NCBI GenBank assembly: GCA_035235625.1
Contig: CP141141.1
Location: forward strand, 40,509,719 to 40,573,718
From: Saururus chinensis
Taxonomy: Eukaryota; Streptophyta; Magnoliopsida; Piperales; Saururaceae
Length of the DNA: 64,000 nucleotides
Reading direction: 5' to 3'
The notes beneath the pieces are model-generated. The model was not told the origin of the DNA. It was given only the letters and a program-made list of their open reading frames with translations, and did not search any database. This document shows positions 19,105-61,765 of this stretch, piece after piece (positions within the stretch are counted from its first letter, which is position 1; every line of letters begins with the position of its first letter). The position numbers and the translations under genes were made by a program.

Positions 19105-19590
19105 ATGGGACGATCCTTTACCCTTGCAATCCTTTTCATTACACTGCTTTTTGCACCTCCTATAACCCAAGGTAGATAAGTTTATGAGTATGTCGTTTTC
19201 CAGTATTTTGATTTTTTTTTACAAGCAGCCATGTTATATCTCATGCAGGACTAGGGTGGAGTGGGAAGAAGTACAGGAGAGAACTAGCCTCTTTAGACAC
19301 ATCAGAGGTAAATTTCAATCTTCAGCCATTTTCCTTTGGAGGTATTTCGCATCTTGTGGCTCTCATCTATTCTAGCTCTAAATTGTAGTCATCATGGGTG
19401 GTCTTAGGTGGAGTATGAGGAAGGAAAGGTTGAGAGGATACTTGATGATTACGATTCACCCACACATAGCAGGAACAAAAGAGAAACGCCACCGGGGCCG
19501 CCGCCTGACACCCCTCCAGAGCCCCTCTCTGATTCCGATAATTCTCCTGATCCCGCTACCCCACCGGAGGCGGAGGCACCTCCTGAATGA
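19105..19590 (+). CDS. Small secreted peptide precursor 1, possible sulfopeptide
   Basis: Exons are 19105-19171, 19249-19307 and 19408-19590, with GT-AG introns of 77 and 100 bases. Together they give 309 nt and 102 aa. Residues 1-22 are a clean signal peptide (MGRSFTLAILFITLLFAPPI then TQ). Next come GLGWSGKKYRRELASLDTSE and a Glu-rich stretch EYEEGKVERIL. Then follows DDYDSPTHSRNKRE, and a Pro/Glu-rich tail full of PPGPPP and PPEP to the stop. The DY preceded by acid fits tyrosylprotein sulfotransferase sites. The pattern D-Y-x-x-P-x4-N-x-R recalls PSY or RGF/GOLVEN peptides but matches neither consensus exactly. The family is not recognised with certainty. The paralogue at 46967 keeps every splice site and the frame, which is the best evidence that this is a gene. 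The mature peptide could equally be the Pro-rich tail. Confidence 0.72.
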
Positions 19591-19705
19591 ACTAGGATGC
19601 TCTCCCTTGTTGATACAAATAATTAAAGGTCGAATGTCTCATTAAGTAATACATTATCTCCAGTGTAATGCATATAGACATGTGTAACAACAGGAAGTGG
19701 TTTGG

Positions 19706-19800
19706 ACTTTCTGATACATGGTTAGATTGCAGCATATATATTATTTGTACTTTCTGATACATGGATAGATTGCAGCATATATATTATTTGTACTTTCTAA
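19706..19800 (+). repeat. 43-bp tandem repeat downstream of peptide gene 1
   Basis: Starts at 19706, 19749 and (partial) 19792. Each unit begins actttct(g/a)atac and ends attatttgt. It lies just after the gene, in the probable 3' region. Confidence 0.75.
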
Positions 19801-19829
19801 TACTTGCAGATAAGAATAAAAAAGGTCGA

Positions 19830-20660
19830 TATTGTCTACATGAGCAACTCCATTTTCTGCATGCAGTGTTATTTATGTGTTTGCTGTCTCTGACTCTCTA
19901 TAATCCGGCTTATCTGGATCATCAGGCAAAACTAGTGCACAGACAACTCCATTTTCTGCTTGATGTATTATGGAATTTGTCAAGTTTAATTTATTAAATC
20001 CCCTTGATTTTTCTTTATGGCTCAATCAACTGTTCAAACCTTGGATGAGGAAGAAACTCGTTTTCCCGAGCTGTTTTCACCACCATGAGATATTTATGAA
20101 GCACGACGAATCTGTAAGTAGCCAACAATACTCGTACGCCTTAACCAAAAAACAAATAATTGTACGCGTCTACTTTTGATGCAAATCTGACTCAGTCAGA
20201 TGTGACACGGGAGCTTAGCGACACGCTTTTTAAGGATTATGAGTTGAGTGATGCGACGCGCCTCGCAGGACAATGTTTCCTGACCATCGATATTTTATAT
20301 TGATAGCGGATATATTAAGTACATATTAATTTAGTAATATTTATATTAATATATGCGTCATTAATTTTGTAAATGAATAGTTCCTGTACATACATACCGT
20401 AAGTTGAGTTTATTATCAAAGTATAAAAAATGCTTCTATCAAAGAATATATAGCAATCTAAGATTATTGGTAAATTTTTTTTTCTTACTAATATGTATTT
20501 TTTTTAAATTATTTCGTGATTTTGTTTCCCATTTGATTTAATAAAAAAGAGTTATCTCTTGATAAAAAAAAATATAGTAGTCGGGAAAGGCCTACGGTCT
20601 TGTGTTCACACCTCAAATGTTTTCTCACCCAAACTTTATTTTAACATTAGCACAGTATCA
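19830..20660. repeat. Segment paralogous to 4740-5840
   Basis: A same-strand copy of the DNA upstream of the receptor kinase, lacking the 700-base insertion found there. After 20270 it becomes very AT-rich. No gene is seen; the frames at 19761-20179 are unsupported. Confidence 0.55.
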
Positions 20661-21662
20661 CTGATACTAATATATGCATCATTGATCTTAGAAATAAATA
20701 GTCCCTATATATTCTTTATGTTAGGCTCATGGTAAAGAAGCATGAAAAACCCTTCTTAGCTATAGGGTGACAAGGAGGGGCACCCTCTAAAAACCTTGTA
20801 TTAATATATAAGTATAGTTATAATATTACTCCTTCTCTTGGGTGGAAGAATTTGGTAACAATAACTTTATATAATATACCAATTCCAATATTACGATGCT
20901 AGTCATTAACGAACAATGTCAACAATGTACCACCAGAGTGATTAAAAAAACAACCATATCATGACAGGGTTAAGTAGGTAGGCCCGTTCTATATAAAGTT
21001 AGTGGTATTTTTACTAAAGACAAGCAAGCAATAAAAAATAAATTATTCCCTTAAAAGATAATAGTATAAAAAATTACAAAGAAGTTCAAACCCTTATATC
21101 CTACTCCAGTCATAATTTATTCTCTCAAACGCTAAACTCCGTTCCTACTTGTTCTCACAAGCATCAAAGGCCTAAAGCAAAGTGGGTCACTCGTCGTCTT
21201 CAATCCTCGTCTTCACTAGTCCTAAAGTAAAAAAACTAAATTTAAAGGGAAGGTTGTACCTTGGGGGCAATCCTAAAGACAAGATTTATCTGTTTGTCTA
21301 TTCATTAGCTTCCTCAGTTCATTCTTATTGTATAATGACAATGTCTGCCCCTGTCACATTATCTCTATCATTTGATTATTTTGATTAAGGTAAAGTATGT
21401 TGTAAATATAATTCATTAATTTAATAGCTTTTGTATTCAAAGTCTCTAGCTTTCTTAATAACAAACTTCTCATGTCCTTGACGTTTTGAAGGTTATTTAT
21501 TTATGAATTTACAACTTAATTTTTCTCTCATTACTAAAAAACCTTATTCAATTTATTATGCATTATAAAAAATGATAAGAGTTATCACTAATTTAACTTG
21601 TCTATTACTTAAATTAGTATTTTTATTTAGAATAAAATATTAATTATATTTATGCCTATTAG
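20661..21662. other. AT-rich intergenic DNA
   Basis: No gene is seen. Short MITE-like words (ataggctcatgg, tactaatatatgc) repeat those of 18400-18560. The frame at 21182-21388 has no recognisable domain. Confidence 0.4.
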
Positions 21663-23637
21663 TATGACACCTTGTATTTTCAAAAAGAAAATTAATTCCT
21701 TTTATTTCTTTAAAAATGCTCCTTTTTGTTCATTAGCAAGTCATCTACACTTCAGTGACCTACTAATGAAATAGTGTAATGTTATTATCGCCAAGCATTG
21801 ATATGTCTATAGCTTACCGATAATAACTGCATACATCGGTTATTTTAGAAAATGAGCTAGTTTTACACTTTCAAGACTCCTAAAGTAGTTATCCTAGTAT
21901 AAAAGAGAGTGAAACTAGGAATTTGGGAGAGAACGGAAGTCTTAGAAGGGTCCTAGCACCGGTGTGAGTGACCGGAAGGAGACTTCATATCAAAATAGGA
22001 GAAATCTCACTTCGATATAGGTCGGATTGCAATCTACTCTTTGAAATAGAGAAAAGCATTTGTAGATTTTTTATTTTCTTCAAGTTCTCGATGATCTTAA
22101 ATGTGTGCATGTGATTTTTAAGTTACGCCATGCATGATTATGCTTTAATGGTAAGTTCAAATTACAATAGGTTTAATGCTCAATTTATGACCCAAAGGGT
22201 TTGGAACTTTGGTTTAAAATGATTTCCATGAGTTTTTACGAAAGAAAATGTGTTTAGAAAGGATGTGGGGTTACTAATGCATCAATGTTTGCACCGGTAA
22301 AAGGATGAAGATGGATAGTACCTTTGTAGGCATACAGAACCAAGCATATTGGCTAGTCATCAGCAGTGTGGCCGACGCATTAGTGTGTTGTTGGTGGGTA
22401 GGCAATCCCAGCCAATCCACTGTTGGTGAAGGTTCGATACGTCAATATGATTACCCATGGTCATCGATGTCCTGGTCGACACGTCAATGAGGTTACCGAT
22501 AGTACCTAAAGATAAAATATTTTTGTTGTGATTTTTAGCACTGGTTAAGTTATATAGAAATTATATATAATTACATGACTTACAAAGGATTTTGGTTGCA
22601 TGTTGGATGATGAATAAGCATGTATTAAGTAAGGATTAGTAAATCCAATACATATGTATGAGACCTTTGGGATGTGATAATTGGTCACCCAAAACTAATG
22701 CATTCGAGAATTAAGTACAAGAGAATCCTAGTGTGATTATTCAGTCATTTAGCCATGTAGAATGAAAGGGTATGGTATAAAACATCACAAGGGTGAAAGT
22801 TATATAGACTCCCCTAGCATGGGAGTTGGGTTTGAATGGACTATAGTATAAAAAAGATGAATGCTTCTGCGCAGAGCAATAGTAGGGAACACAACCACTA
22901 AGGACCATGAGCCATGAAGTGGGCCTTTGCTTCGTGGCGTGGATAGGGTGGGGCAGGCTTTAGGCAATGACTGAAATTGAGTTTGGGGTAGTTCAATATC
23001 TAGTTAAGTGGGAACTCCTAAATGAGGCTATTGTGTCTAGTGGACCATGAAGTGGAGTTCCTTGTTGTAAGTATGTATAATTCGGAAAGATATCTATGAA
23101 TCTAGTTTTCATGAATTCCTAATAGTTTTGGTAATAACCTTTTTTTTTATATGTTGTCAGTTTATATTGGTTTTAATTAGATTGCAATTTTACTAAATAT
23201 ACTCATATACTTAGCATCCTTTGTGGTACAGGTTCAAAATGTAGAAGATTATTTATAGGTATTGGGAAGGTTATAGTTGTGGAGGAGACCCTACCTTTTC
23301 AATTTGTTGATTCATCATCTTCCTATTGGTTTACTTTTAGGCACGGGAGTGTCATTTGTCATTTTTATTAGCTTGTGCATATGTAAGTGACATGTGCATT
23401 GTTGTAGATCCTATAAATATTATAAAATATTTAGATAGTTAGAGGTTTACTTATGGTATTATCACAACCAATGTTTGTTAAAGATATGACTCTCATGTCC
23501 CCAGTTTATCTTTTCAATGCTTTATAACCTCAGTAAATAGTTTTATCCACTACACATTATGAAGGGTAGCATGACATAAATTTTCATTTGGAGGATAAAG
23601 ATTTTATAAAAGGCTATTTAAATTTGTGGGCGTGACA
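21663..23637 (+). mobile_element. Solo LTR C (1975 bp)
   Basis: It starts TATGACACCTTG (the usual TGT has become TAT) and ends GGGCGTGACA. A perfect 5-bp target duplication ATTAG lies at 21658-21662 and 23638-23642. The plus-strand TATA box AGTATAAAAGAG is near 21897. No open frame of note is inside; 22305-22490 is not a gene. Confidence 0.85.
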
Positions 23638-24276
23638 ATTAGTGAAGTTGACAATTAAGCTATTATACAATGCTTCTAAAAAATGACGATATGAGAGCTC
23701 TTCATGGACAATTTTAAAATGTTATCTATTATAATAAAAAAATTATAATTTTTGCACAAAAAAATTAAAAATTAAAAAGTAACATTTTTTGCCCTTCCAA
23801 GGCAAAAATCATGGCTCCACTGCTCCATGCAACCTAGTTTTTTCAATATCTAGCTTGTAACTTTTCATTCTTTTTTTTATTAGTAAGAAGTATATTAAAC
23901 ACAAAAGGGGAAATGCAAGAGTTAATGAAGACTAATTATACAGCTTCTAACTATGAGATAAAAAAAGGAAAATCATCTAAAAAAATAGAGTTCTAGGAAG
24001 TGATCAAGATGATGACGTAAATAGCAAACTTTTGTGAAGACTTGAAAGCTTATGTTTCCATTTCATTCACAAGGTATAAGTAGTGTTTACAGAGTACAAC
24101 TATAGGGATTGAAATCCCTTCTGTTATGGGTATAAGTTTAGTAAGTTACAACAATCAAGGAATCTATATTTGACTAGAATCACAACAAATTTGCCAGTGT
24201 ATCTTTGTCCATATCCTTGCTTGTGGTGATATCACTCATAACTTCTACTTCACAACACTTGAATAAGGTGATTTTA
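23638..24276. other. Intergenic; possible truncated copia LTR
   Basis: AT-rich DNA with no gene. The stretch 24020-24240 (ttcattcacaaggtataag..., ttgccagtgtat) has the look of a copia-type LTR end but I found no pair or target duplication. Confidence 0.3.
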
Positions 24277-24366
24277 TGTAATATCCCAAATTTTTCTAGC
24301 TTTCAAAAATTAAATACATGGAAATTAGGTTGTTTGATCTTTTGCCCTTCTTAATAGAATAACTTC

Positions 24367-27300
24367 TGTGACGACCCAGATTTTTAAAACCATTTTTAAA
24401 TAACATGAACGGTAAGTAGCGATAAATTTTTTTTTCTTTAAACACAAAACAAACCATTCAATTAAATATCCAGGTCATGATAATTGGGGTTCACAAATAC
24501 GAATATTAAATTGTATAATATTATTATGCGTCAGAAAAATTTATAAAGAATAGCTCATCCATCTAAGTACAAGTCCGTCATCCGTCTGAAAATAAATAAC
24601 AAGTTGACTCTCATGCTCAAGGTACATTTACGTACCAGAGTTGCAAACACGTAGAAACTTCATTCTATACGCGTCAATCTTGGTCTCACTTGTTGTCACC
24701 TGGAAAACCTGCAACAAAGCAAACCAAACAACAACCATAACCACAATAGAGCATCTCCGCCTTTAGGAGAAGAGCTTCCAAAGGGCAAAAGGTTTTATTA
24801 ATATTATTCAGATCGGGCCAACATCACCCGATGTTAGTTGCCTACGTACTCATCAGACAACATCTCCAATGTTTCCAACAAGATCGGATCCAGACGTAGT
24901 TCTGCCTAGAAACTACTCTATCCTAATAAGCATAGCACCACACATGCAATGCTTAAGTATATTTAACCTACATTTTAGTAAGTCATTTAATCGTTCCACT
25001 TGTCCAATTAACAAGCAATATCAAACAATGTTATTAATTATCTCACAACTCTTGTTCAATAATTAATATTATAAAATCTATAACTTGGAAATGTCTCGCC
25101 CCTCGAGAAATCCCCAAACAAAGTACTCCAACCTTATATTAGACTGCTTAACAGCAACTTGACCCAAATCCCCAGGGCTCTCAATAGCTTGCTATGAATC
25201 TGGGGAAAAGTATCCCAACTGTGCTCATGGACACAGATTGGTAAGAAGCACCAGCCTTCCATGATGCTCATACAACTCCGCTTTTCGTACGTACTAAATA
25301 GTCCTGGGAAGTCCTGCGGGAGACCCGCGGTAAAGACCCTCTGGTCAATACCTAAACCATCGTGGTGATGAAGAAGCATATCGCAATCTCCAGCATTATC
25401 CATATAAGCCTCAGGTCCTCATGACCATTGACTCAGCCAAACATCTGAAATTAGACTAGATTATTTCCATCCAGTCAAAGTATTCACTCAACCATTTGGG
25501 TCATTTTCACCTTGTGAATCGACCCAATAAATAACTCATCTATTGAGCTATGACTCAAAGAACATCCCATAACCATCCTCGGTTCATTAACCAAGTTAAA
25601 AATTCTATGTCAGGGCCCCATTCAAATCCATGAACCGTTCCCAAACCCTATTGAGGGTATTTTAGTCTTTATCTTGATTAGATGTTCTCCCTCCACACCA
25701 ACAGCAACCCATGTCTCTTGATTAATCTTCATTAATCTTAAGTTACTGATATGAATCAATGCATCAATATCAAAAGCATGCATCAACATAAATAACATCC
25801 AATCATACAAATGCATAAATAACAAACGAAGGCCCCTTGCACTCATGTACAAGACTAGGGCTTAATGTATTCAAACCCAAGAGTGTAAACAAATCTCACT
25901 CAACACGTGAATTACGTATATAATACTCTAGCTGATCAATGTATACAATTGCAGACACGTGTAAATCACTGCCTTACACCCTTATAATTAAGGTTATTCC
26001 CCTTATTTCCCGTGACACTATGACCTGTCAAGGTCTTGTGTCTTTTACTAGTCACAACCCTTCCTTTTAAAGTCATTTAACATCATTCTAGGGCACCCTA
26101 ACGCTTGATTCACTAGGTCATCCGTTTCGACAGAAATAGAATATATTGCCCCTAAGGGCGTTAGGGTAATTTTACCGCTTAGGGTATGATACCCTCCCTT
26201 GGTCATTCTAGTTATTTTACTGCCCCTCTATTGATTTAAGTCATTGACCTCTCACAAAGCTCCACTCTCAGACCGACTCACGCTTCCATTTACACGAATG
26301 TGGGCGGGTCCACTCTAAGGGGTAATTTTGTCATTTAGTTTAAAGCCTTAATGAAATCTAATGGGTCCAAAATTCAATGCAAGGGTACTACTGGGCTTCA
26401 TAGCCTCTGTGTAATTTTCCTGGCATATGACGGGGTCGTGAACCCCTTGAACCGACCAAGGTTTTGACAAATGGTTTACTATAAACCCTAAGGGCAAAAG
26501 GGTCCATTAACTACTCACTGGGATTTTTCAACACTAACAATTTTGGCCTATAATTAGATTACCCATTAAACTCTCACTGAGAATTTTCCTAATTTTTAGA
26601 TCCACTCATAGGCCCCTAAACCAAAGCCTCGAATTCGGGTAAGTTAATAGTAAATGATAATTAACTAACGGGGGTAAAAAGGTCATTTTACAATCTCTGG
26701 GATTTTTCCCCAAGCTAAAACTTGGTCAGAATAATCCCAAACCTCTCCAGGTCCAATAGTAATTTTTTAGGAATTTTTTGACACAATTAAACCCACGAAC
26801 CGGACCCGGTTCACTCCCCTCCTCAATTATCCCTTTTTTAAAAAAACAATCGACCCGGCCCGGGTCTTGAACCACCTGGTTCAGGTCAACCAACCCAAAC
26901 CCGAGCAGACGACCTGCAGCGGGTCATCTTCCCCGCATCCGGTGAGGACTCCCAGTCGGCGGCTCCCGGGTTGCCACGGCGGGGCGACGGCCAGGATCGC
27001 CTCCAGGCGGCGATCCTTTCCAGCCTAGCCCGGCTTCCGCTGATGGCCGGCCAGAGCCTCTGCAACAACAAAACATCCGACACGGCCGCCATAGACTTAG
27101 CCTCAGGTGGTGCTGCTCCTGGTGGCCACGGCGGGGTGGGAGGCTAGCCTCACTGGATCGCCGCCAGGCGGCGATCCTGTTGAGCCAGGCTCCGCTGTCG
27201 CCCGGTGGCCGGCCGGAGCCGAAAAGATCCCTTCCTCTTTCTTTTTTTTAAACAACCGGCGGCCTGCACAGTGGCAGGCGAATCTACCGCCGCTAAAGCC

Positions 27301-28001
27301 GCCGGAGCCAGGGCTTCCACGGCCATGGCCGCCACAGCTAGGCCACCGCGGCCCCAATCCGAGGGTTGATCCGACGACAGGAAATCAATTACAGTTCACT
27401 AAATTACATTAATAGTAATTGCAGAGATCAATATAAATTTTCATAAAATTAATTAACATCTCTACGGTTCTCAATTCGAAATCTTACCTCTCAAGTCGAG
27501 TTGTTTGTCAATCCACCGCCGCCAACACTTCACCGGAGTCTTGCCGGAAAATTCCATCATCGCCTCTTTCTCGTTAGCTCCCCATTCTCCGCTCTATCTC
27601 CGCCAAAAGACCCCCAAAAAAGCCCTAATTAATTCTATTTACAGGCATGGGATTAGGACTCCTAATCCTATGAGAAATTAGGCCCCAAAAACCCAATTTC
27701 GGAATAGTAAATAATCAGGCCCTTATCGCAACTTAAACAGACAATTCACGCGTTTAATTCGCGTAAATGGGTCCTGCACGTTGTAGCCAACTTCAAACGG
27801 TCGTATCTCCCTCATCCGGACTCCAAATCACGCGTTCTTGGTGGCATTTCGAAGCTCTTTCTGTCTATTTTCCATCCATATATTATTCAGCCACCAATTA
27901 TACCTGATTATTAATTTATTCTCACGGGAAAATCAAGGGCTCGTACACCCTAATTTCCCCGTGTACGACTTCAGGAATTTAGAAAATTCCCAAACGTTAC
28001 A
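24367..28001 (-). mobile_element. Solo LTR E (3635 bp), nested in LTR D
   Basis: The ends are TGTGACGACCC and AACGTTACA, with a perfect 5-bp target duplication ACTTC at 24362-24366 and 28002-28006. The probable TATA is on the minus strand near 27640 (CTGTAAATAGAA). The conserved module is at 24811-24910. The GC-rich part 26880-27360 produces several overlapping frames on both strands (26886-27092, 27103-27412) that are compositional rather than coding. Confidence 0.92.
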
Positions 28002-28301
28002 ACTTCCTCCCTAGATAAAATTTGTGGATGAAGCCTATGTTTTTAGAAAGTAGACAGAAAGAGTTTTAAATGTCACCAAGAACGAGCAAATCGGAGTCCG
28101 GATGAGGGAGATACAACTGTTCGAAGTTGAACATATTGTATAGGGCTTGTTTAACCGATTTTAACATGTAATTAGGTCGTTTAAGTCATTTGTGGGCCCA
28201 ATTAATTAGAGCTCCAAAAAAAATTTTAAGGGCCTAATTAGGTGGCCTAATGGAGGGAAAGTGGCCCAATTTCTAGGAGGATTAGAAACCCTAATCCCTA
28301 T

Positions 28302-31300
28302 TGTCACACCCCGGCATTGCCCGACCCGGGCCGAACCCGGTCTAGGGGCTGGTCAAGTGCACGGGGGCGACAAGGGGAATTGAAAATTAGTTTAGCGGAA
28401 GACTTAGCCCTAATCGCGGGCAATCTAATAAAATTATGGAGTATGCACACCACTTTGAGCAAAAGTAAATAAGTAGAAATCAAAAGAGCTACTTTAACTC
28501 TAAGATAAACAAAAGTCTCAAACCCACATGCTAAGTTAAACCATAGCCCTCTCTAGGCTCCAAAATAGGTCTTAAGCAACACAAGGTATAATGTCACATA
28601 AACCAATTTAAGAACCACACACAAAGGTTCTAATCATCAAAGCATAAACAAGGAAACAAGTCACATAGGGGTCTCCACGATCACTCCCAAATCGTCTCCG
28701 ACCTTTCCTAAAAGAGGAGATATTGTCCATCTGCGTGTCACACCATGTAGCCCCAAAGATAAAACACAAGACAGAGGGGTGAGTTTAACAAACTCAGCAA
28801 TGGTTTTTAATATAACTATAATCATCGGAAACACGACGGTATAGTAATATAACAATTCATATCAAAGATTGACAAGATGTATCATTTTCTGATCACACAT
28901 ACACATCACCTAAACCTGTATCATAGTGTATAATTCACATGGTGTCATTCACATCATATAAACCTGCATTAGATGTATCTCTAACATACATTTCAGATCA
29001 TGCATCAACATCATATCAACCTGCATGAGATGTATCTCTAACATACATTTCAGATCATGCATCACATCATATCAACCTGCATGAGATGTATCTCTAACAT
29101 ACATTTCAGATCATTCATCAACATCATATAAAGAATGCCTCTATCAAGGAGTAATCACAATTTAGTATCACACAAACGGGAACACAAACAAGGCTACGAA
29201 GGCGTGTCATGGTCCAAATTCTACACAAGAATATAAGATCGGGGTTATCAATCCCTAAAGTTGTTCGCCCTGGACGATCCTGGCCAAGATGTCTCATTCT
29301 CACACAGAAAATCTAGAACAGGGGTGTTCGTCTTGGGACATCTCCTGCGATGGGGAAGAGCCCGAGTTTCCACACAAGAAACCCTAGAACACATGGTAGC
29401 CGGTGCACAGAGCATACCATACTGGATTCTCAGGGTCCAGAAGACAATCATAATAATCTCAATTCGCAAGACAAGTACACGACTCGTCCCCACATAATTT
29501 CCATTTAACTAGACTCAACCCGGGGAGTACACATGTTCCACAAAGGAACTCAAATCAAAACATGTCCTTTCGGACCAATCAAGTTTTGAATTAAGCCACA
29601 ACCAATTAATCTGGCATGTAATTTCACCTCATTGCATCAAATCAATCAAATTCGATTAATCTCGATAAAGCCTCAATTGGAAATCCATTTTCATAATGCA
29701 TGCAACATGGTACATACGTGGGCAAAGCATACATGAATCCTAATTCATGATAAGTGCTCACATCAGCCCCTCATGCATCATTCATAATCATAATATCAAT
29801 CCTCATCATCATCATTAAACCCCACATGTGTGTGTCTGTACATGGTAGAAGCACTTTACTCAATGTATATCAACATGCTTGTAATTTAACTCACCATCAT
29901 ACTACACATGTGCATTAATATCTAATCATGAATTCGAGCGAAAATCATAGGAGAAGAACCATTAAAAGCATGTCTCAAGTCCAAGCCTATCCACAAACTA
30001 AACATACGTAAGATTCATTCACTTCATACTTGAGTCAAGACATAACACTAACATTCACACATCATTTAACCACATCCTATCATGACATAACAGTCCATTA
30101 GTATATTGTAGCTCTATTAAAATATATTTAACCATAGAGAATCAACCATTCATAACTTCAAGATGACAATTCCAACATCATATATCCAACCACAAGTCAT
30201 TCCACATAACTCTAAATATACACCACAACTTCATAACCTCAATGGTATAACCTTCCAGTAGCTTACTATAGCTCAAAACACTCCACATACATATGAAAAT
30301 GATATATCAAAGTAGAGACACCGAAATAAACATCATGCAAATGAAAGAGAATCTGTTGTGTAGCCGTTCGAACGCCCAGTAGGGCCGTTCGATCAGCTAA
30401 ACGTGAAAATTCTAAAAAAACAGTGTTGTCATTCGAACGCTCAGGAGGGCCGTTCAAACGCCAACACGGCAGAATCGACCTTCTTCTTTATTTCAAATTT
30501 TCAAACCGAAACTCCATTGATAAAACTTAAAATCTCCATCTAACAACCCAAATGCCATTAAAATTCCACCATAACTTCCAGAAAGCTAATCTACACCATA
30601 ACAAGATAAAACCCTAAGAAATTGGGATTAAAGATTACCATTTATTAATATTGTCATTAAAGCACTAAGTCAAGTAAATCCACTTCAAATAAACCACAAA
30701 ATCGAGATTTTTACCATAGGAAGACAGAAATTTCGAAAGTCCATTACCTTATCCCTTGATTAGGCTTGGATTTGACGGTCACCCTTCTTGAAAACCTTAC
30801 AAAGACATAGAGTTTAAATTAAACTCCATTAAAACCGATTTAACATAGAAAACCTTAATGAAAAACTTAGATCTAGAGCTTGTTAAACATAAAAAATAGA
30901 TTTTTAGATCCAGGGTTTGAAGTAAAGATGCAAATTAGTAGTTTTGATGTTTAAAAATGAATCAAAATAAATGGGAAATGATAGATTTAGAAAGGATTAG
31001 GAGAAAATCTAGGTTTTAAGGCTTAATTAAAAGAATCATACCTTAAGCTCCTTCTAATCTAGGCCTAATTGGGGAATTAGGCCTAACCTCCATTTCCCAA
31101 CCTATTCTCAAAAATGGAAATAGCTCAGATCATTCTATTTATAGTAGGGTTTGGGGTGTGCATAAGTAATTAGTGGGGTATGAATAGAGAAATGGGCTAA
31201 AAATGGATATTTTGGCTATTTGAGCACTAATTAAACCTGGGAAAATTATAAAAAATTTTATGAAGGCTTGTGTTGATGTCTGGGTTAATTTTATTTAAAA

Positions 31301-36377: not shown

Positions 36378-37569
36378 TGTGACAACCCAAATTTTTTGTA
36401 CGTTTATAATAATGTAATTTTAATATATTGATAGAGTACTATTTTAGATTTGTTACATAAAGAGTTATTGTAAAACTCTAAAAACCGAATATAAAGGTTT
36501 TTGAATCATTTGAATTGGAGGTAGTGGCCGTATGTAGAGATCGTGAGAGCGTGCATCATAAGCGGGCTTACGGTAAAACCTACCCATGAGCGATCTTGTT
36601 TCGAATGGCTCGTCGATACGAGTTCATTGGTACCAAGAATGTATAATTCCGAAATATAGGTAAAAAGTTACAGCTATTTAAAGTTTTGAAAAAAGGAAAG
36701 AAAAAAATGATATTTTATTAACCAAAATTTAACCGCACGACATCGCGCGGTTCGCCCGTGTGGTGCACCATGCGGTGCACAGAATTGCGTGGCCCGCAAT
36801 GCGGGCCACGCACCGGCCACGGGACTGCGCAACACGCGGAACCTGCATGCCGATTTCTGCGTTACCGTGCGGTAACCGCGCGACATGCGCGGTTCCACGT
36901 GGTGGAACCACGCAGTGCACGGTGCCACCGCACGACGCGTGGTGGACACGCATCGCGCGTCGAGCGTTCCACCTCTCCTATAAATACTCTTCAGAATTCA
37001 CTTTTACTATTCACTTTCACCACAGTTAAAACTTCCAACCCGTCATTCTGAGCCGTTTTAAATCCAAATCGACCCGTTCAAAAGGCGTTTCTAATTAAAT
37101 CGAAGGTGTCGGACGCTGTGACGGGGCTGGATTTTCTATACAAGCTCTTTACAGCCACGAACTTTACACCCTAATTGTGGCGCCCCGGGACGGTAACGGA
37201 CCCGGGCTGGGGGTTCCGAAAGTCGACGAAAACCAAACCCAGAACCCGAGAGCGTCCGTCTCTGAGTGCGAGAGTCTTCTCCTTCCTCTACGCGCTACGG
37301 AACTTTAGCGCCCCGTTGCGCGTAGGCAAAAACTGGCCTAATTATATAACTAATTTGGACCGGGCCAACGTCGCATTGTCGTTGGTTGCCTACGTACATA
37401 TCGGATAACATCCACGATGTTACTCCGATACGATCGGATCCGGACGTAGTTCTGCCTATTGGCTACTACATACAACTTGCACACCAAAAACACATACGTA
37501 TAAAGTACGTATCTCCGAATATTTAATCGGAGGTATACGAAAACCCGATAAAACACCGACAACACACAT

Positions 37570-37836
37570 CTCGCTCTATCATAGAGACGAGCACCACACG
37601 ACCACCACAACATGCCTCGCTCTATTCCAGAGCGGATACATCACATTCACACGTCTCGCTCCATCACTGAGCCGAGACCGAACACACACCACACGTCTCG
37701 CTCTACCGTAGAGTGAGACAACACACATCATAGCATAAAAGCACACATCGATCATGGCATATAAGCACACATCGATCATGGCATATAAGCCGACATACAC
37801 ACACACAACACGTCTCGCTCTAAGCTAGAGCGAGAT
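37570..37836. repeat. Five short hairpins of the tctcgctcta type
   Basis: Imperfect palindromes at 37570-37590, 37615-37635, 37652-37678, 37695-37719 and 37812-37836. Each has a (t/c)ctcgctc(t/c)a left arm and a tagag(c/t)gaga right arm around a 3-5 base loop. They sit in the 3' half of LTR I (read leftward). Confidence 0.75.
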
Positions 37837-38330
37837 AGCACACATTATAATATATGAACATAACATATCGGAACATAAAGGATCATAGCACTTCATGGCA
37901 TATGAGCACATATCATGGAAAACATATAGATCATAGCATAGCACACATCATCATCACTAGCATATACCATTCTATAATTAAAATAGGAGGTTAGGAAACG
38001 CTTACGCCCCTGATGTCTCACGAGGTGGCGTATTCGGGATGCTCGTTTCTGGGCGTCCTCCCCTTCAGATCTAGAGACAGCGGACAGAGCCTCCTCTAGC
38101 CTCCAAACGTTCATCGCCTTGCACCGAAAGACGATCGACCGACCGACCGATTCTCCCCTTTCCCGGAGACTTCTCGTTTTCTGCGCCCGTAGGCGGCGGA
38201 TAGAACCTCCCCTACTCGGGGTGTTCCTCACACATCGTGGCCCTTCGGTGGAGACGAAGTCTCCCCTACATCGGGCCACCTCTCTTGATCCGGCCCGGTA
38301 ACGGAGGACGGAGCCTCCTCTCTTTCCCGG

Positions 38331-38335
<5 letters not shown>

Positions 38336-38410
<75 letters not shown>
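38336..38410. repeat. (CT)n microsatellite
   Basis: About 36 uninterrupted CT units, then ccctttctttc. It is inside LTR I and accounts for the Arg-Glu and Ser-Leu repeats in overlapping frames. Confidence 0.97.
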
Positions 38411-38411
<1 letters not shown>

Positions 38412-38759
38412 TTCTTTCTCTTTCTCTCGGGGCAAGAGGGTAATAGACAAAGCCTCCTCTTGCCTGGGTCGTTCCTCCCTTCTAGGAGCACCAACTCGAG
38501 GAATGGACTATGCTATTGCGTAGATCACCCTCGAATTAGCTAGGAACGCCTCAAGAACGACTCGAATCGGACTTAAAATGAGTGAGAAACGAAGAACAGA
38601 AGTTTCTGAATGTCAGAGGGAACACAGAAACGTGGGAGAGGATTCAGGACCGTGGGAGAGAGTTCTCCGGAACCTTTAAACTGAAGACTCAGGACGTTAT
38701 TTATAGAAAAATTGGATAGACCTGAGGCTGACACGTGGCAGATAGGATTGACACGTGTC

Positions 38760-38877
38760 AGTCTTATCCGTTGCGTCAGCGATCTTATCCGCTTCGTCAG
38801 TAATCCTATCTGCTTCGTCAGCAATCCTATCCGCTTCGTCATCGATCTTATCCACTGCGTCATCGATCCTATCCAGA
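38760..38877 (-). repeat. 21-bp tandem repeat in the U3 of LTR I
   Basis: About five and a half units of (a/g)atcctatccgcttcgtca followed by two variable bases. The array lies directly upstream of the minus-strand TATA box near 38700, where enhancer repeats of LTR promoters usually sit. The phase of 21 keeps an open frame, which explains the Ile-Leu-Ser repeat frames. Confidence 0.88.
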
Positions 38878-40097
38878 ATGATATTATTTTATTCAAATAA
38901 TATCCAAAACTCAAAGCGCGATAACTTCCAACCTCTACGTTGGAATCGCACGCTCTTGTAACCGATGGACTCGTGTCGACGAGACCTTCGAAACAAGACC
39001 ACACATGGGTAGGTTATCCCGCACTTTTATGTGGGTCCTGCCCATATAGCACGCTTCCCGAGGTCATAGCTTTCTCTCCCGACCTCCATTTTGTGCGTTC
39101 TTTGAATTGCTACGCTCGTTACTCCGAGCTCTACCCATCTACAGGGGTTTCATCCCTTGAAACTCCCCGACACTTAATCAAACAATTACCGAATTACCCT
39201 TAACCCACCCGGGTTAAGCGTAACCGGAAAACGGGTCGTTACACTAATTCTACGGTAGGGGGTCTTAAACTCTAGCTTATGCTCTGCTTATATATTTTAC
39301 TTTTTATGGACCATTTTTATTCAATCGTGTGTCTTTCTTTACGTTTTCAAAAGAAATGTTTTACGTATATCATGTTTTATTTAATCAAAATTATGATGCG
39401 ATAAGTGTGTTTTCTGGATGGTTCTAGGGTTATACCTAGAACTATATTTTTTCTGGATACCTGCCGAAGAAATTATTAGTATTTGGCGCGTGCACATAGT
39501 TATGGAGTATCATGGGAAAACTCCTGCCTTCTGAGCTTCATGTTGCCCCGTGAGCATCGGAGGAACGATGTTCGGTATCACGGCTATGGATTTATCGTCA
39601 TCGGACGAACCGGTGTTTTCCCAGAATTATTTCTGAATATGTTCTGCAAAAATTATTATGATTTTTTACTTAGCATCAAATTAGATTTTAATTCCACCTA
39701 CTGAGTATAAAAATACTCACCCACCCTCAGACTCTGCAAGTAGTAAAATCAACCCGGAGGTGTCAACCGAAGAATTATCTATGTAGTTTCTTTTAAATAT
39801 CTCTGTAAAAATCTGACTTTTATAAAAGGCCGGTTAGGCCTGTATTTTGTAATTTAAATGTTCTACATACAGTGTATTTTGGACTAGGTCCTGATTTGCT
39901 ACTACGTTATATGTAATATTCTAGTTGTGCTTCAACTCCAAAGTATTATAAATTATTATGTTTTATATTTTTGTTATGTTTTCTTGGATTCGTACGGCGA
40001 GCCGTCATGTTCGGTTTCACGTACGATGTAACACGTGCTGAGCGGAATAATAATTACGCGAATTTATGGCGTAGATTATTTTCCGATGGTCGCCACA

Positions 40098-42320
40098 TTT
40101 AATTCCGATTTAAAACCCTAATTAGGTTATTTTCGTATTCAACCTAAGGAGGTTTTGAATCTATCATTTCCTAAATTGATTTAAGTCTATTAATTAGTTT
40201 TGATTAAAATTAACCAAAAGCCCTAATGTTTTGTAAGATTTCTTGAGGTTGAAGCTCATTCAAAGGATTCACAAGCTTGATAGGGGTAGGGGGGTTTTCT
40301 TTCTAAGAGGTTTTCATCATTCAAAAGTTATTATTGTGGGTTTCTTTGAACTTTTGATTCATCTTGATTTGTAATGGTGATTTATTAAAATATGTGTTTT
40401 ATGGTTGTTTTTGTATGTTTAAACATGAAAATTGTTAGATCTATCACGCTTTAGGCTCATGTAATCATTATATGAAGTTTCATGAAATTTTGGAAATTTT
40501 TATTGATTTTTGGAAGAATTCTAGTTCAGTTTCGTGAGGTAGAAGATGACTATTTTGACATTTCTGTTTTGACCATTCGATCGCCCTATGGGCTAATCGA
40601 ACAACCAGTCGTTCGAATGGGATGAGAGGTCGTTCGAACGGCCAGCAGTTCAAACGGGCCATCAAGTCATTCAAATGACCAAATAGTTCTTTATTTTGAA
40701 TTCACAACTATGTTTCAGATACTTTTACTTTGAGTTTTGCTCTCAAATTTTTTTTGGGAATATATAATCATGTCTAGATTATATTCCTATTTATTTAGAT
40801 TTTTTTGGAATAATATTTATTTATTATATTTTTGGAATGTGTTGTATAGTAAAACAATGCTTCATTTTTGTGTTTAGAAGCATGTTTAAGGATAAAAAGT
40901 TATAATTTTTAGTTCATTCTTTTTATGATGGATTGATATATATTTTATGAGCATGCTATAAAAAATTCAAGTTGTTTAGAGCACGATAAGATAATGGCAT
41001 AGTCATAAATTTGAAGGTCGACGATTTTGGCAAAACTTGAGAGTTTCATTAATTAAATGACAAAAATAATTGTTTGTACTTATTTTCATATGATATTTAT
41101 TTATGTGTTAATTAAGACTACGATGTAGGTCTCAGTCAATTTTTATAGTGATTGGATTTTATTTTTTATTTTTTTAAAATGTACAAGTTGCATGTTGTGA
41201 TTATGTTAAAACATCTACTTAAGCTAGTAGAAATGAGCATATGTGTAATTTTAAATGGGATTTTAATAATTTATTTATATTTACTCCATGATTTCAGTAG
41301 ATTATGACTGTGATGAATTATGAATACTTGCACATGTCACATTAATTATATATGAACCATGTTCAACATCTTTTAGCTTAAATATGAGCACGTGCATGTA
41401 TGTATATTTTTACTCATACTTATATGACTTTATTTGTTATAAATGGACCATATTTCATACATATTAGGAGTGATTAGAGTAGGTTTACCTATGCTTGCAT
41501 TTATTAAACATTGCTCACAAATGTATCATGTCGCATGCATCATGAGAATGACTTATAAGTAAAGATTACTCGTGTTTAACCGTAATTAATTAATTTGATG
41601 TCTTAGTATTCCAGATTAGCAGTAACAGAGGTTTATCGAATCAGTTTTACATCAATTGGATGGGGTTTTATGTTCATTTAAGGATGGGTTTCCTCCCCAG
41701 GTGAGAAGAGCATAATGTTATAATGAGTTACATCGATGAATATTCCTAGACATAAGAATTTAGGTTGGTTAGTCTGTGTGTACCTGCTTTTCAGGGGGTA
41801 CTTTCCTCGTTAGAACTTACCCAAACTTTCCTAATTTTTCTTTTTAAGAATTCAGACTTCTTTGTTAGAATTTTCAAGGTGAGCATGTCTGCTTGTGCTT
41901 CGGCCAAGATAAGCATAATTGTTTTCTTTATTGTGAGACATTCACCGGATTATTTATGCATATGTATGGATTATAATGCTTATTGACACAATTTATGTAG
42001 GGACAATAATACTTATGTTACACGTAATGTATATAAAATGATTACACTTGAACATGTAGGATAGAATATAGTTTGACACACTTGATTATGCAGGGTAAAT
42101 GTGAATGTTGATGATTGCTTCATACTTGATGTGAATGAACTATGAAACTTAAATAATTGTACAAGGTATGCATGTGGGTATACGGGTTAATATAGAGCTT
42201 ATGTATATAATTAATTATCATTGTGATCTTAAAGTAATATATTATAACTATGGCATGCAAAGGAAACTTTATTTACTATATTTTAAACTTTTAATTAATT
42301 TATTTTTTCTAATCTATATT
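40098..42320 (+). mobile_element. Right part of outer LTR H
   Basis: It continues the sequence broken at 36377 by LTR G. The stretch 40565-40680 carries several TTCGAA and TTCGAAC palindromes, as 30360-30465 does in LTR F on the other strand. A T-rich region follows, with no gene. The right end is not seen and may have been removed by the Pack-MULE that starts at about 42321. The frame at 41765-41986 has no support. Confidence 0.5.
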
Positions 42321-42899
42321 TAGGGAAAATTATTTAAATAAAAAAAATTATTTATCAATTTGGACCACTTTATAAAATATTTTTCAAAGTGGTGTTTTTT
42401 TTTGTCACGCAGGCACAAGCCAAGCAGTTGACGCTTACATGACTTTTTTTTAAAAAAAAAAATTTAATAATTTCATCCTTTAGAAGGACAAAATTAGGTT
42501 TAAGTTGATTTCGTCCTTCTAAATGACGAAATGGGTTTAACGTTATAAAACTTAACCCAGTTTCATCATTTAGAAGGAGTCCTTCTAAACGACGAAATCA
42601 CCCTAAAACCGACGTCGTCTCAACTTTGATGCTTTCCATGCAGAAGCATTTCTCGATGCATGCAATCGTCTTACTCATAAAACCAACGGAGGGAATATGG
42701 TTTTGAGCAAATACAATATATACCGTCTGCCATCAACGGGTTGCGAAACATCGCGAGTGGATTTAATCATTTTGGAGGAAAATTTGACAACGGAGCTCGA
42801 CATGGACGGAGGACCACCTTTTGGAGCCCTTTACAGAAGAGCGAAGCAAAACCCGAACATCAATTTGACGGCAGAAGAGAACGAGAGACAGGGAAAGAA

Positions 42900-43170
42900 A
42901 GATGGAGGAGAGTTCTTCAAACTAGAGGAAATCCGTGGACAACAACCTCAAGAGGCTCCACTCCCTCCTCTTCGGGGCCGACATCGCCCTCGAGAAGGGC
43001 GACTTCTCCTCCCCCCAAAACCTCAACCTCCGCCTCCTCGGCTTTCTCGACTCTCGCTACCAAACCGAAGTCGATGTCGCCTACGTCCAACCCATTCGCG
43101 CGCAAGTCCTCAGCACGGGTTGGCCAACGACGTCTTCATCAAGTACGATGGCCAGCCCTTCCTGGCCCAG
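42900..43170 (+). pseudogene. Captured exon chimera, left arm
   Basis: Read in the frame at 42935 it gives NLKRLHSLLFGADIALEKGD and onward to GFLDSRYQTEVDVAYVQPI. This looks like conserved host coding sequence, but I cannot name its gene. It then switches to [17 protein letters not shown] (alpha-glucosidase family) in another frame. It ends exactly at CAG followed by GT at 43171, as at an exon border. The mirror copy is in the right arm. Confidence 0.6.
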
Positions 43171-43281
43171 GTTTTTTCCACGCTAATAGCTTGTGCTTCT
43201 CTCACTCCCGAGTCCGGACAGAAGGGGGGAGGAAGAACTTTTGTTTTGCTTCAGAGTTGCTTCACTTTTGCTGCAGGAAAT

Positions 43282-43510
43282 TTATTTTGGCGGAGAGGAT
43301 TTCCAGCTCGGTCCCACGAACACAGCCTTGGTAGGAAGATGCCAGACCCGAGCCAGGGGGGTCTTTCCCGCGGCGCACGTGAAGTTGTCCAACCACGTGG
43401 TGTCCACCGTGAAATTGGTTTCTGGTGCGCGGTAGTTGGCTCGCAAGTTTTCAGCGCCCTCGAGCGTCAAGTCAGTGACGAGGTCACCAAAAAGCAACGT
43501 ATCCGATGAG
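43282..43510 (-). pseudogene. Captured coding-like piece, unrecognised
   Basis: The minus frame reads LLFGDLVTDLTLEGAENLRA and then NYRAPETNFTVDTTW, with coding-like composition and no stop. I do not recognise the family. It lies between the arms of the Pack-MULE, so it is most likely another captured fragment. Confidence 0.4.
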
Positions 43511-43975
43511 GAACTGGCAAGAGCCGCTTTCCCGGAGGGGAGTAGACAAGGGCTTGTCGATCATCTTTCTGAGCGACGATGAGGAACTCGCTCCAGTAGT
43601 GGCTGTCAGGAGCTTGCATGGCGTGATGAACAGGTCTTAAGAGGAAAGCACCTGCTTGTAGAGGGAAGAGCGGGGGCTGAGCTCTTCAGACCCACCCCAT
43701 CATTTAATAGCTTCATCCTTCCAATGGCATGCCAACACCAGCCATGTGCCAGCAGCCAGCTTAAGCTTAGCCATGGCCGTCCCCCCACCTCCTTTCTTTA
43801 TTGCTCGTCGTCCCTACCACGTTTGTTGCTGTTATGGGCTTACCGCCAGCTTTTGCCCCCCCAAAAGGAATGAAAACGAGAAAAAGGGTGGCAGATGTTT
43901 CGACCTTGCTCGTTTGTTCTCACTCAATACTCCTTCATTGCCATCCAGCTCTCTATTAAACAATCACGGTTGCAG

Positions 43976-44149
43976 ATCTCCATCCCCCGGCCTTGGAGGG
44001 AGATGGCCCACCTTCATGCGTTTGGACTTCCGCCCAGCACCGGCGAGGCGCTTCATCGAGTGCGGACCAACCTTGCTTACTTCCGGATGAACTATGCTAT
44101 CGTCGTCCTGGTCGTCGTCTTCCTCAGCCTGTTGTGGCACCCCATCTCC
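43976..44149 (+). pseudogene. Captured fragment of a PRA1-family protein
   Basis: The plus frame gives ISIPRPWREM, then RVRTNLAYFRMNYAIVVLVV and FLSLLWHPIS. The RPW, R-x-R-x-N-L-x-Y-F-R-x-N-Y and SLLWHP pattern is characteristic of plant PRA1 proteins, which are small four-helix membrane proteins of the secretory path that bind prenylated Rabs. Only the part up to the first hydrophobic pair remains, and it then runs into unrelated sequence at 44150. Confidence 0.75.
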
Positions 44150-44210
44150 AGTACACTGGAGGTGTACTGCTCCATGGAACCAATGGCATCCCCCATACCC
44201 TCGCCTTCCT

Positions 44211-44470
44211 CTACTCCGGCAGTAGTGCAATCCCCAGAGTGCCAATGAACCACAGTACGTTGGACAGCATGTCCATGCTGGTGAAGAAGGCAATGAAGCA
44301 ACTGCAGATGGTGATGAGCAGTGTGGCATTCACGGGCGTGCTGGTCTTGGGGTGCACCAGGGCGAACACCGGCAGGATCATGTGGGCGCCGTGCAATCTG
44401 GGCCATGTACCTGGCCTGACCCAGCGCCCCAACCAGCATGCCAATCGTCATGCCCTTGAGCGAGGGATTT
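44211..44470 (-). pseudogene. Captured fragment of a cationic amino acid transporter
   Basis: Read on the minus strand with one frameshift: LKGMTIGMLVGALGQARYMA, then PVFALVHPKTSTPVNATLLI and TICSCFIAFFTSMDMLSNVL. VHPKT-x-TPV-x-AT followed by a helix is typical of CAT-type transporters of the amino acid-polyamine-organocation superfamily. It is truncated at both ends and frameshifted, so not functional. Confidence 0.75.
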
Positions 44471-45059
44471 GCGCTTATGCTTCTGCCACTCTCTTGCTTT
44501 GTGGTTCTGAAACTAGTACAACACATTCTTCCTTTCAATCTTCCCGTACTTCCCCAGCTGGGCTGTGATCTGGTTGATATGCTGAGCGGTGGGAGTTCTC
44601 ATCCCTTCTCAGTATAGCATCTCCAGGATCTGTAGCTGCTCCTGGGCCGGGTTCCACCTTGTTCCTCCAGCTTGAACCACAATCTGCATGAATTATGTTC
44701 GTGTCTTTCAAGCACTTTCAGACAAAACTAATCAAACTAGAGGAGAGACAAGACCACGGTAACCGTGCTGCTGCTCAGCTTGGGTGCATGTTGGGGCAGT
44801 CTCTTGCATCCCAAAGCTAAACACTGCTCCTGCTGATCCCAGTTATCCACACGTACAAAATAGTCAATCTTCATGGCTGCATGCCTCACAATGAAGAGGA
44901 TGGTGATTAACTGATGAGGATTTAGCAGCTGAAGTACCTGGGGCAGGGGTGCGCATCTTCGCTCCGGAAACACAGAACAGAACAGCCAGTTAAACTAATT
45001 GCATCAAGGCAGCAGTCCCATGGCTTCCCAGTGCTGGGGCAAGGGTGGTTGGTGGGGAG

Positions 45060-45268
45060 CTAGCATTTACCAATGCAGAAATTGGAGACCTCGTTCATGT
45101 CGATCCAAAGACCGTCGATGGGGATGAGCCCATGAAAGTGCTTGATCTCGTCGGCCCACCAAGAGACGGTGCGTGGGTTGAGGTAGTCCGGGAAGTAGAC
45201 GGGTCCGGACCAGACCTGGGCCAGGAAGGGCTGGCCGTCGTACTTGATGAAGACGTCGTTGGCCAGCC
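45060..45268 (-). pseudogene. Captured exon of a GH31 alpha-glucosidase or alpha-xylosidase
   Basis: The frame reads [20 protein letters not shown], then [20 protein letters not shown] and [24 protein letters not shown] holds the nucleophile Asp of glycoside hydrolase family 31. This is about 70 residues of an 850-residue family, in the right arm of the Pack-MULE. The first 17 residues also occur in the left arm; the rest do not. Confidence 0.88.
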
Positions 45269-46056
45269 TGCGCTGAGGACTTGCGCACAAATGGGTTGGA
45301 TGTAGGCGACATCGACATCGGTTTGGCAGCGGGAGTCAAGAAAGCCGACGAGGCGGAGGTTGAGGTTTTGGGGGGAGGAGAAGTCGCCCTTCTGGAGGGC
45401 GATGTCGGCCCTGAAGAGGAGGGAGTGGAGCCTCTTGAGGTTGTCGTCCACGGATTTCCTCAAGTTTAAAGAACTCTCCTCCATCTTTCTTTCCCTGTCT
45501 CTCATTCTCTTCCATCGTCAAATTGATGACCAGGTTTTGCTTCGCTCTTCTGTAAAGGACTCCAAACGGTGGTCCTCCATCCATGTCGAGCTCTGTCGTC
45601 AAATTTTCCTCCAAAATGATTAAATCCACTTGCGATGTTTCGCAACCCGTTGATGGCGGACGGTATATATTGTATTTGCTCAAAATCATATTCCTTCCGT
45701 TGGTTTTACGAGTAAGACGATTGCATCCATCGAGAAAAGCTTCTGCATTGGAAAGCATCAAAGTTGAGACGATGTCGGTTTTAGGGTGATTTTGTCGTTT
45801 AGAACGTGATTTTGTCCTTCTAAACAACGAAATCGGGTTAAGTTTTATAACATTAAACCGATTTTGTCATTTAGAAGATTTAAAAAAAAAGTCACGCAAG
45901 CGCCAGCCACTTTGCTGGCACTTGCATGGCAAAAAGGAACACTACTTTAGGAAATATTTCTCAAAATGGTCCAAATTGATAAATAAATTTATTATTATTA
46001 TTATTATTTAAATAATTTTTTTATATATTTATATTCATAATATATATATGAAAAAA

Positions 46057-46244
46057 GTTAATATCAGACCTGGCTCACGCGCGCTGGTGTGTGCCCGGAC
46101 TGATTGGGCCGTCGGATTTACATCTGATGGCCTATCAAACTCACGGGTTTAAATGCCCCGTGAGAATGATGGCCGTCGAATGTTAATCCGACGGCCCAAT
46201 TAGCTCGAGCGCATGTCGTGCGCGTAAGCCCGGGCTGATATTAA
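46057..46244. mobile_element. MITE with terminal repeats GTTAATATCAG
   Basis: Left end GTTAATATCAGACCTGGCT and right end CCCGGGCTGATATTAAC are inverted copies, and the inner part is also nearly palindromic (gggccgtcggatttacatc against gttaatccgacggccc). The length is 188 bp. Target duplication is unclear. A related end (acgttaatatcaacggcccg) occurs at 18300-18320. Confidence 0.75.
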
Positions 46245-46870
46245 CGGGACTCTATAAATATATATAATATTATAATATAAAGTATGATAATACATAATCT
46301 TTATAAAGGAACTTTGTGACACAAAATAGCCTCGGAGGCGAAATCCTCTCGAGAAAAAATAATGAGACCACCATTCAACATTATCATCTTTATTAGGGAA
46401 GAATTTTTTATACTTTATTTTGACAATGAGCATAAGTATAAAAAACGTATAAAAGTCATTCATATGTGGTACTAACGCTAACGATATTGATCTCAAATAT
46501 TAAAGGTTCTCGTGTATTTCTTATGCTGGGGCTCATTTTCATAGTGCACCATTAAACGTTTCCCTTTCGTTAGTTACAGCCTATAATTTTAAGTAGAATG
46601 GGTCTAACACGGGGTCGAAGGGAAAGCTACCCGCCAGAAACTATGACGCTAAAAATGGGTCTCACATACATCACATCAATCACATTAATTTTGCAGGTGA
46701 AACAAGGAGGTAGGTGCACCATCCGCGGGGTGGTCAAGCCCCATTAAATATGCGTACATATCTGCTGACTTCACTCGCGAGTCCTCCTGCAAAATGATTT
46801 CCCTCGCAACTCCAAGACGAACTTCCTGGAAACATACCATCCGATTCCTATTGGTTTTCTGAATAAAATG
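46245..46870 (+). repeat. Upstream segment of peptide gene 2
   Basis: Collinear with 18290-19040, the paralogous upstream region of gene 1, although diverged. It holds short MITE-like inverted pieces and no gene. Confidence 0.55.
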
Positions 46871-46909
46871 GAGCGAAGCCATGGGACGATCTTTTACCCT
46901 CATAATCCT
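46871..46909 (+). repeat. 39-bp copy of the gene 2 start region, in its promoter
   Basis: The sequence gagcgaagccatgggacgat plus 19 more bases is identical to 46957-46995, the start of the coding sequence of peptide gene 2. The copy ends exactly where the TATA box begins (46909-46917). Confidence 0.9.
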
Positions 46910-46917
46910 ATATAAAG
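46909..46917 (+). promoter_or_regulatory. TATA box of peptide gene 2
   Basis: TATATAAAG lies 50 bases before the ATG, at the same distance as in gene 1, and is followed by the conserved leader gttaagtggctcgttcaag. Confidence 0.6.
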
Positions 46918-46966
46918 AGTTAAGTGGCTCGTTCAAGTTTCATTTGTATTTGAGATGAGCGAAGCC

Positions 46967-47429
46967 ATGGGACGATCTTTTACCCTCATAATCCTTTTCG
47001 TTACGGTGCTTTTTGCTCCCGTTATATCCCAAGGTAGATGAGTTTATGAGTACGTCGTTTTCCTATATTGATTTTTTTTTTAACAAGCAGCCATGTTATA
47101 TCTCATGCAGGACTAGGGTGGAGTGGGAAGAAGTACAGTAGAGAAGTAGCGTCTTTAGATACCTCAGAGGTAAATTTCAATCTTCAACCATTTTCCTTTG
47201 GAGGCCTTTCGCATCTCTAGCTCTGAATTCAAATCATAATGGGTCTTCTTAGGAGGAGTACCAGGAAGGAAAGGTTGCAAGAATACTTGGTGACTACAAT
47301 CCACCCAGACCCAGCTGGAACCAGAGATCAGCACCGCTGCCGCCTGACACCCCTCCGGTGCCCCCTTCTGATTCCAATTACTCTCTCCATCCCGCTTCCC
47401 CAAGGGAGGCAGAGGCACCTCTTGAATGA
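46967..47429 (+). CDS. Small secreted peptide precursor 2, paralogue of gene 1
   Basis: Exons are 46967-47033, 47111-47169 and 47253-47429, with the same exon lengths (67 and 59) and phases as gene 1. Together they give 303 nt and 100 aa. The signal peptide is MGRSFTLIILFVTVLFAPVI, then SQ; next GLGWSGKKYSREVASLDTSE and EEYQEGKVARIL. The candidate core is GDYNPPRPSWNQRSAP, followed by a Pro-rich tail (LPPDTPPVPPSDS). The D-Y-x-x-P-x4-N-x-R pattern is kept although the residues between have changed. An in-frame ATG four codons upstream (46955) is possible, but gene 1 has none there, so 46967 is preferred. The ends of exon 3 differ from gene 1 by a net two codons. Function is inferred only: an extracellular signalling peptide or wall peptide. 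Confidence 0.72.
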
Positions 47430-47490
47430 ACTAGGATGCTCTCTTTTGTTGCTGCAAATAAAGGTGGAATGTCTCGTTAAGAAATATATA

Positions 47491-60324: not shown

Positions 60325-61765
<1,441 letters not shown>

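Follow-up and report, generated by a model that had tools for sequence, protein, structure and literature searches.

A candidate family of DY peptide precursors encoded by small, twice-interrupted genes

The 64-kb window analyzed here (the whole stretch of DNA under study, G000:C2:40509719-40573718) belongs to a host genome of 516 Mb in 11 contigs and carries two short loci, hereafter genes A and B, whose reconstructed products share an Asp-Tyr (DY) motif. These loci raise the question of whether they are real protein-coding genes and, if so, whether their products would be members of a known family of tyrosine-sulfated signalling peptides or of a new one.

Gene structure and copies in the genome

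The three-exon splicing proposed for both loci in the initial annotation was reproduced from the DNA (Table 1). The introns are of GT-AG type, the first in phase 1 and the second in phase 0 (77 and 100 nt in gene A, 77 and 83 nt in gene B), and the predicted products measure 102 and 100 aa, respectively. The protein features that it had described as common to the pair were likewise present in both translations: a hydrophobic N-terminus (signal peptides in the family were judged by eye), the block GLGWSGKKY, an acidic stretch, the pattern D-Y-x2-P-x4-N-x-R and a Pro-rich tail.

A search of the host genome at the DNA level returned at least eight copies of the family, five on contig C2 and three on contig C9, as well as one short fragment, counts from this search being lower bounds. 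A protein search extended to an E value of 10 gave 23 matches, 22 of them within known copies and one weak match on contig C1 (E 5). The three C9 copies form a segmental duplicate of one part of the C2 group: long colinear blocks, mostly 82-93% alike, connected L008 with L003, L002 with gene A, and L004 with gene B.

The three-exon frame was free of internal stops in seven of the eight copies. Among these open copies, exons 1 and 2 always measured 67 and 59 nt, exon-3 lengths (183, 174, 183, 174, 228, 258 and 177 nt) differed by multiples of three, intron lengths varied freely (76-89 nt for intron 1, 83-101 nt for intron 2), and canonical splice dinucleotides were found at 27 of 28 positions, the exception being donor 1 of L005 (GG). 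Under neutral simulation (4000 runs) all seven frames stayed open in 1.9-2.0% of the runs; for the five intact copies the figure was 5.1-5.9%. The DY pair and the core residues P5, S8 and R12 were retained in 7/7 copies and N10 in 6/7, while the tripeptide S-D-S was invariant in the acidic tail (7/7). A TATA-like site was located at -55 to -58 in all eight copies. In gene B, some 40 nt around the start of exon 1 (46957-46999) are duplicated at 46870-46911, just 5' of this site.

Five copies appear intact (genes A and B, L002, L003 and L004), with predicted products of 99-102 aa, DY in the second half of the protein and an acidic Pro-rich tail of 31-36 residues. Including L005 and L006, predicted lengths reached 127 aa, with DY at residue 56, which in these two does not fall in the second half. 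The yardstick taken for PSY is a secreted precursor of 60-200 aa whose motif opens with DY in the second half. Both L005 and L006 carry ACG in place of the start codon; an ATG in the same frame precedes it by four codons. L006 is the copy without N10; its core is replaced by an in-frame, repeat-like expansion rich in Pro and Arg (DYNPPKPSMPRRSQPRRVPPRR...), giving a protein of 127 aa. L008 is broken, donor 2 being deleted and exon 3 replaced.

The claim that these are real genes of a small, spliced, secreted type, which had rested on the pair, is thus supported by a family of eight copies. That genes A and B are protein-coding members of a small family, amplified in tandem and by segmental duplication and encoding secreted propeptides with a stable scaffold and a diverging core, is a reading to which we give about even chances.

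Table 1. Position of the features discussed (numbered from the first letter of the window; contig coordinates for family copies and fragment)
Feature	Position	Strand	Description	Basis
Gene A exon 1	19105..19171	+	67 nt; ATG and a segment resembling a signal peptide; 3' end in phase 1	splice reconstruction; present in all paralogs
Gene A exon 2	19249..19307	+	59 nt; GLGWSGKKYRRELASLDTSE; from phase 1 to phase 0; changes most slowly of all parts	
Gene A exon 3	19408..19590	+	183 nt; acidic linker followed by the DYDSPTHSRNKR core, a tail that is acidic and rich in Pro, and the stop	
Gene B exon 1	46967..47033	+	67 nt; ATG and signal-peptide-like segment	
Gene B exon 2	47111..47169	+	59 nt; GLGWSGKKYSREVASLDTSE	
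Gene B exon 3	47253..47429	+	177 nt; acidic linker followed by the DYNPPRPSWNQR core, a tail rich in Pro, and the stop	
TATA-like site, gene A	19048..19056	+	TATATATAA, 57 nt before ATG	consensus match only
TATA-like site, gene B	46909..46916	+	TATATAAA, 58 nt before ATG	consensus match only
Family copy L005	C2:40402720			
Family copy L006	C2:40445526			
Family copy L003	C2:40471695			
Family copy L001 (gene A)	C2:40528823			
Family copy L007 (gene B)	C2:40556685			
Family copy L008	C9:8683740			
Family copy L002	C9:8688875			
Family copy L004	C9:8715172			
Family fragment	C2:40444689-40444792		104 bp	
MIK2-like leucine-rich repeat (LRR) receptor kinase, first coding exon	1447..4398	-	14.7 kb upstream of gene A and on the other strand; among the three full-length copies of the C2 array; possible partner of gene A	
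Same receptor gene, probable last kinase exon	840..1235	-	exon join inferred	Pfam kinase match
CAP-domain gene	48095-48781	-		Pfam
Peroxidase exon	60325-60759	-		Pfam

Relation to known peptide families

No Pfam family scored above its cut-off, an absence that says little because the canonical PSY proteins of the same genome also fell below the Pfam cut-offs. NCBIfam gave no match for any of the five intact copies, and PDB sequences none for gene A. A weak Pfam match to PARP (E 0.0014) corresponded to low-complexity Pro-rich and acidic sequence and was rejected as a family identity, as was the idea of a bacterial mimic, one scan of genome_contigs having returned 18 pattern matches, none of them a relative. 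A full-text literature search with six short sequence strings of the family found no publication, and searches combining Eucalyptus with secreted or PSY peptides likewise yielded nothing about it.

In order to compare the family with DY peptides of the same genome, published peptides were used as queries. PSY1, soybean XAP5 and PSY2 gave no match, an empty result which by itself shows nothing, while a soybean PSY peptide sequence (PMC9369194; papers are cited here by PMC number, from partial texts) identified two canonical PSY genes on contig C1, L049 (E 1.2e-4) and L050 (E 0.053). Two CIF matches were obtained with a soybean CIF-type peptide, one on C4 and one on C10 (L051), the latter being the one read. 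Both PSY genes comprised a first exon that encodes the signal peptide and stops in phase 1, a second exon of 56 and 59 nt, respectively, and a phase-0 exon with DY; the CIF gene showed the same arrangement, with a second exon of 56 nt. The PSY and CIF genes are thus built alike from three exons (phase 1; 56-59 nt; phase 0) despite no significant sequence similarity, which may reflect a common origin of DY peptides. The family shares this layout as well, with its second exon of 59 nt.

A divergent PSY lineage would offer one explanation of the family, with two residues gained between DY and N, the His lost, the N-x-R-x-x-P register kept and PSY-type receptors still in use. PSY precursors are secreted, of similar size and with DY, the N-x-R-x-x-P spacing of the family is identical to DYPGSGANNRHDP, both hhalign and local alignment picked that register, and L049 has G[KR] seven residues before DY. 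The exon layout is also identical to that of L049 and L050, but the CIF gene has it too, so layout is not PSY-specific and was dropped as proof of membership. Moreover, none of the seven translated copies contained the motif DYXXXX[AP]NXXHXP, as given for PSY in PMC7913133 and PMC11641228, since the family has two more residues between DY and N and no His. The mature domain is described as the conserved part of PSY (PMC7913133), whereas the core is variable in the family, where it is the fastest-changing part and is followed by the acidic Pro-rich tail. For PSY genes of tobacco and wheat the number mostly reported is three introns (PMC12153210, PMC11641228), in contrast to the two found here. 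We regard PSY descent as improbable.

Resemblances to other families were likewise partial. Like the family, CIF/TWS1 peptides carry DY followed by P-[S/T], but their peptide is C-terminal and not internal, and the CIF-type ending IPN/IPH was absent from all seven copies. Several RGF/GOLVEN/CLEL members start with DYxxP; their domain is described as ending in N at the C-terminus of the precursor (PMC11534595), whereas the core of the family is internal, its precursors end in E, P or Q, and a C-terminal N was found in 0/7 copies. The earlier statement that the spacing matches neither PSY nor RGF consequently stands. PROSCOOP genes, which served as a functional comparison, are described as tandem genes of 2-3 exons for secreted propeptides of 72-117 aa that are short, diverge fast and lack Cys (PMC6382344). 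The family has in common with them tandem arrays of short, fast-diverging propeptides without Cys, a nearby MIK2-like kinase and S-D-S in the tail. SCOOPs are, however, reported as confined to Brassicaceae/Brassicales (PMC8448819, PMC11331138), and in the family S-D-S occurs only in the acidic tail, the DY core having no SxS.

Tests of sequence similarity gave no support to kinship with any of these peptides. Scores did not rise above those of shuffled sequences for PSY (precursor z 1.0 and 0.7; core z 0.26), CIF (precursor z -0.08; core z -0.26) or RGF (core z -1.08), core comparisons covering five of the seven copies, and hhalign assigned a probability of 0.2% to the family-PSY pair. In the control comparisons PSY-PSY reached a z of 16.6 and PSY-CIF only 0.04 and 0.53; because PSY and CIF fail to link as well, such tests detect close kin only. 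A further point against kinship by layout is that the PSY and CIF exon models rest on drawing by eye: they were made by hand from the DNA, with the sought pattern already in mind.

The best reading of these comparisons is that the genes would form a new, fast-evolving family of DY peptide precursors, outside PSY, RGF and CIF by the features tested. Judged by gene layout, the family most likely falls in the wider class of DY sulfopeptides. Since the PSY and CIF genes of the genome share the three-exon layout, a new sulfopeptide, with DY as the putative sulfation site, is plausible.

Rates of change along the precursor

The copies were least alike in the DY core (mean pairwise difference 0.22). 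Under a codon model with shared neutral branch lengths, the ratio of nonsynonymous to synonymous change (omega) was 0.26 for exon 2 and 1.46 for the core in the seven open copies (0.34 and 1.63 in the five intact ones), and partitioning improved the fit (p 2.9e-4 and 0.032, respectively). Measured against the introns, first and second codon positions of the core changed at 2.3 times the intron rate in seven copies (p 0.003), and those of exon 2 at 0.45 times (p 0.07), or 0.33 times in the five intact copies (p 0.024).

Several results weigh against a constrained scaffold with a diversifying core. Overall omega was not significantly below 1 (0.75, p 0.12 in seven copies; 0.82, p 0.39 in five), a model with branch lengths scaled separately for each part gave no contrast between exon 2 and core (p 0.5), and in the five intact copies the core excess was 1.67-fold (p 0.10). 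Third positions of the tail were also fast in seven copies (2.17-fold, p 0.005), so that exon 3 may mutate faster as a whole and part of the core effect may be mutation rate. Between genes A and B (counting method: synonymous divergence dS 0.37, nonsynonymous divergence dN 0.16, ratio 0.43) the introns were more alike than the synonymous sites (intron K 0.087). Along the aligned segments (18808-19666 and 46788-47495) identity was 96% and 88% in introns 1 and 2, 82% in exon 1 and 70% in the core, which suggests that the middle part has been subject to gene conversion or uneven mutation. The initial annotation had proposed selection on structure with a changing signal; the slow exon 2 and the fast core were recovered by the intron-rate test and the shared-branch model, while the separately scaled model and overall omega did not bear the proposal out. 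Given that overall omega, the evidence for a coding function of the family is good but not overwhelming.

The same rates are compatible with a different reading, in which the function resides in the block GLGWSGKKYRRELASLDTSE of exon 2, or in the entire secreted protein with its acidic and Pro-rich character, and the DY segment is an unsulfated neutral linker. Exon 2 is the slowest part and the core the least alike, as such a reading would have it, but exon 2 comprises only 20 residues, its constraint falls short in seven copies (p 0.07), and DY, P5, S8 and R12 were all retained despite the fast core. We hold this explanation to be doubtful. Even less probable is an array that is young, decaying or without function, in which tandem duplication has carried the copies along and the frames have yet to break: overall omega near 1, the broken L008, and the loss of donor 1 in L005 and of the usual ATG in L005 and L006 are in its favour, but seven of eight frames have stayed open at up to about 20% divergence, which neutral simulation seldom produced, all changes in exon-3 length are in frame and exon 2 is constrained.

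Neighbouring receptor kinases and proposed mode of action

The window also contains an LRR receptor kinase gene of MIK2 type. It lies in a tandem kinase array (C2:40396105-40514116) with three full-length first exons and at least four partial or broken places, interleaved with the peptide genes. The ectodomain of the array kinase aligned end to end with Arabidopsis MIK2 in one stretch (E 8.7e-152), GSO1 being the top match by summed repeat matches. Four of the five C2 copies have a kinase on the opposite strand, at 3.7 kb (L005), 12.8 kb (L006), 11.9 kb (L003) and, for gene A, the distance given in Table 1. Since the kinase next to L003 is a broken copy, and the peptide genes L005 and L006 are doubtful, gene A alone pairs an intact peptide gene with a kinase exon of full length. 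Gene B had no kinase copy in the stretch read, and neither had the three C9 genes in the 60 kb of C9 read.

Of the MIK2 residues described as holding the SxS of SCOOPs (D246, N268, S292, H294 and H316; PMC11331138), none was kept in the kinase of the window, where these positions read E, Y, D, S and Y; a pairing of SCOOP/MIK2 type is therefore unsupported, despite the invariant S-D-S of the tail. That lineage-specific DY propeptides were amplified together with MIK2-like kinases as an interleaved array of ligands and receptors, the core diversifying and the adjoining kinases being the receptors, is very unlikely, as both partners are intact in the gene A pair alone, gene B and the C9 copies have no kinase in the sequence read, and simple hitchhiking during tandem duplication accounts for the linkage. 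Were it true, MIK2-like kinases would have a ligand in plants beyond the Brassicales, from which SCOOPs are not reported.

Elsewhere in the window, nested inverted repeats were observed at 42326-46008, with arms of 547 nt (93%) and 130 nt (75%). The open frames that they enclose look like genes but lack a clear Pfam match, and the structure is probably a foldback element or a captured gene fragment.

If genes A and B encode DY peptide precursors, as we favour, the propeptide would be secreted by means of its N-terminal leader, the Tyr of DY would be sulfated by TPST, proteolysis would release the peptide by a cut before DY, and an LRR receptor kinase would perceive it. Leader and exon 2 would act as a stable scaffold for a peptide core that diverges from copy to copy.

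Should they prove to be expressed and sulfated, the products would add another group to the DY peptides, one whose spacing the published PSY, RGF and CIF motifs would miss and whose signal part varies on a conserved precursor scaffold, the opposite of the pattern described for PSY. The exon layout shared with PSY and CIF genes also suggests a motif-free route to unrecognised sulfopeptide genes.

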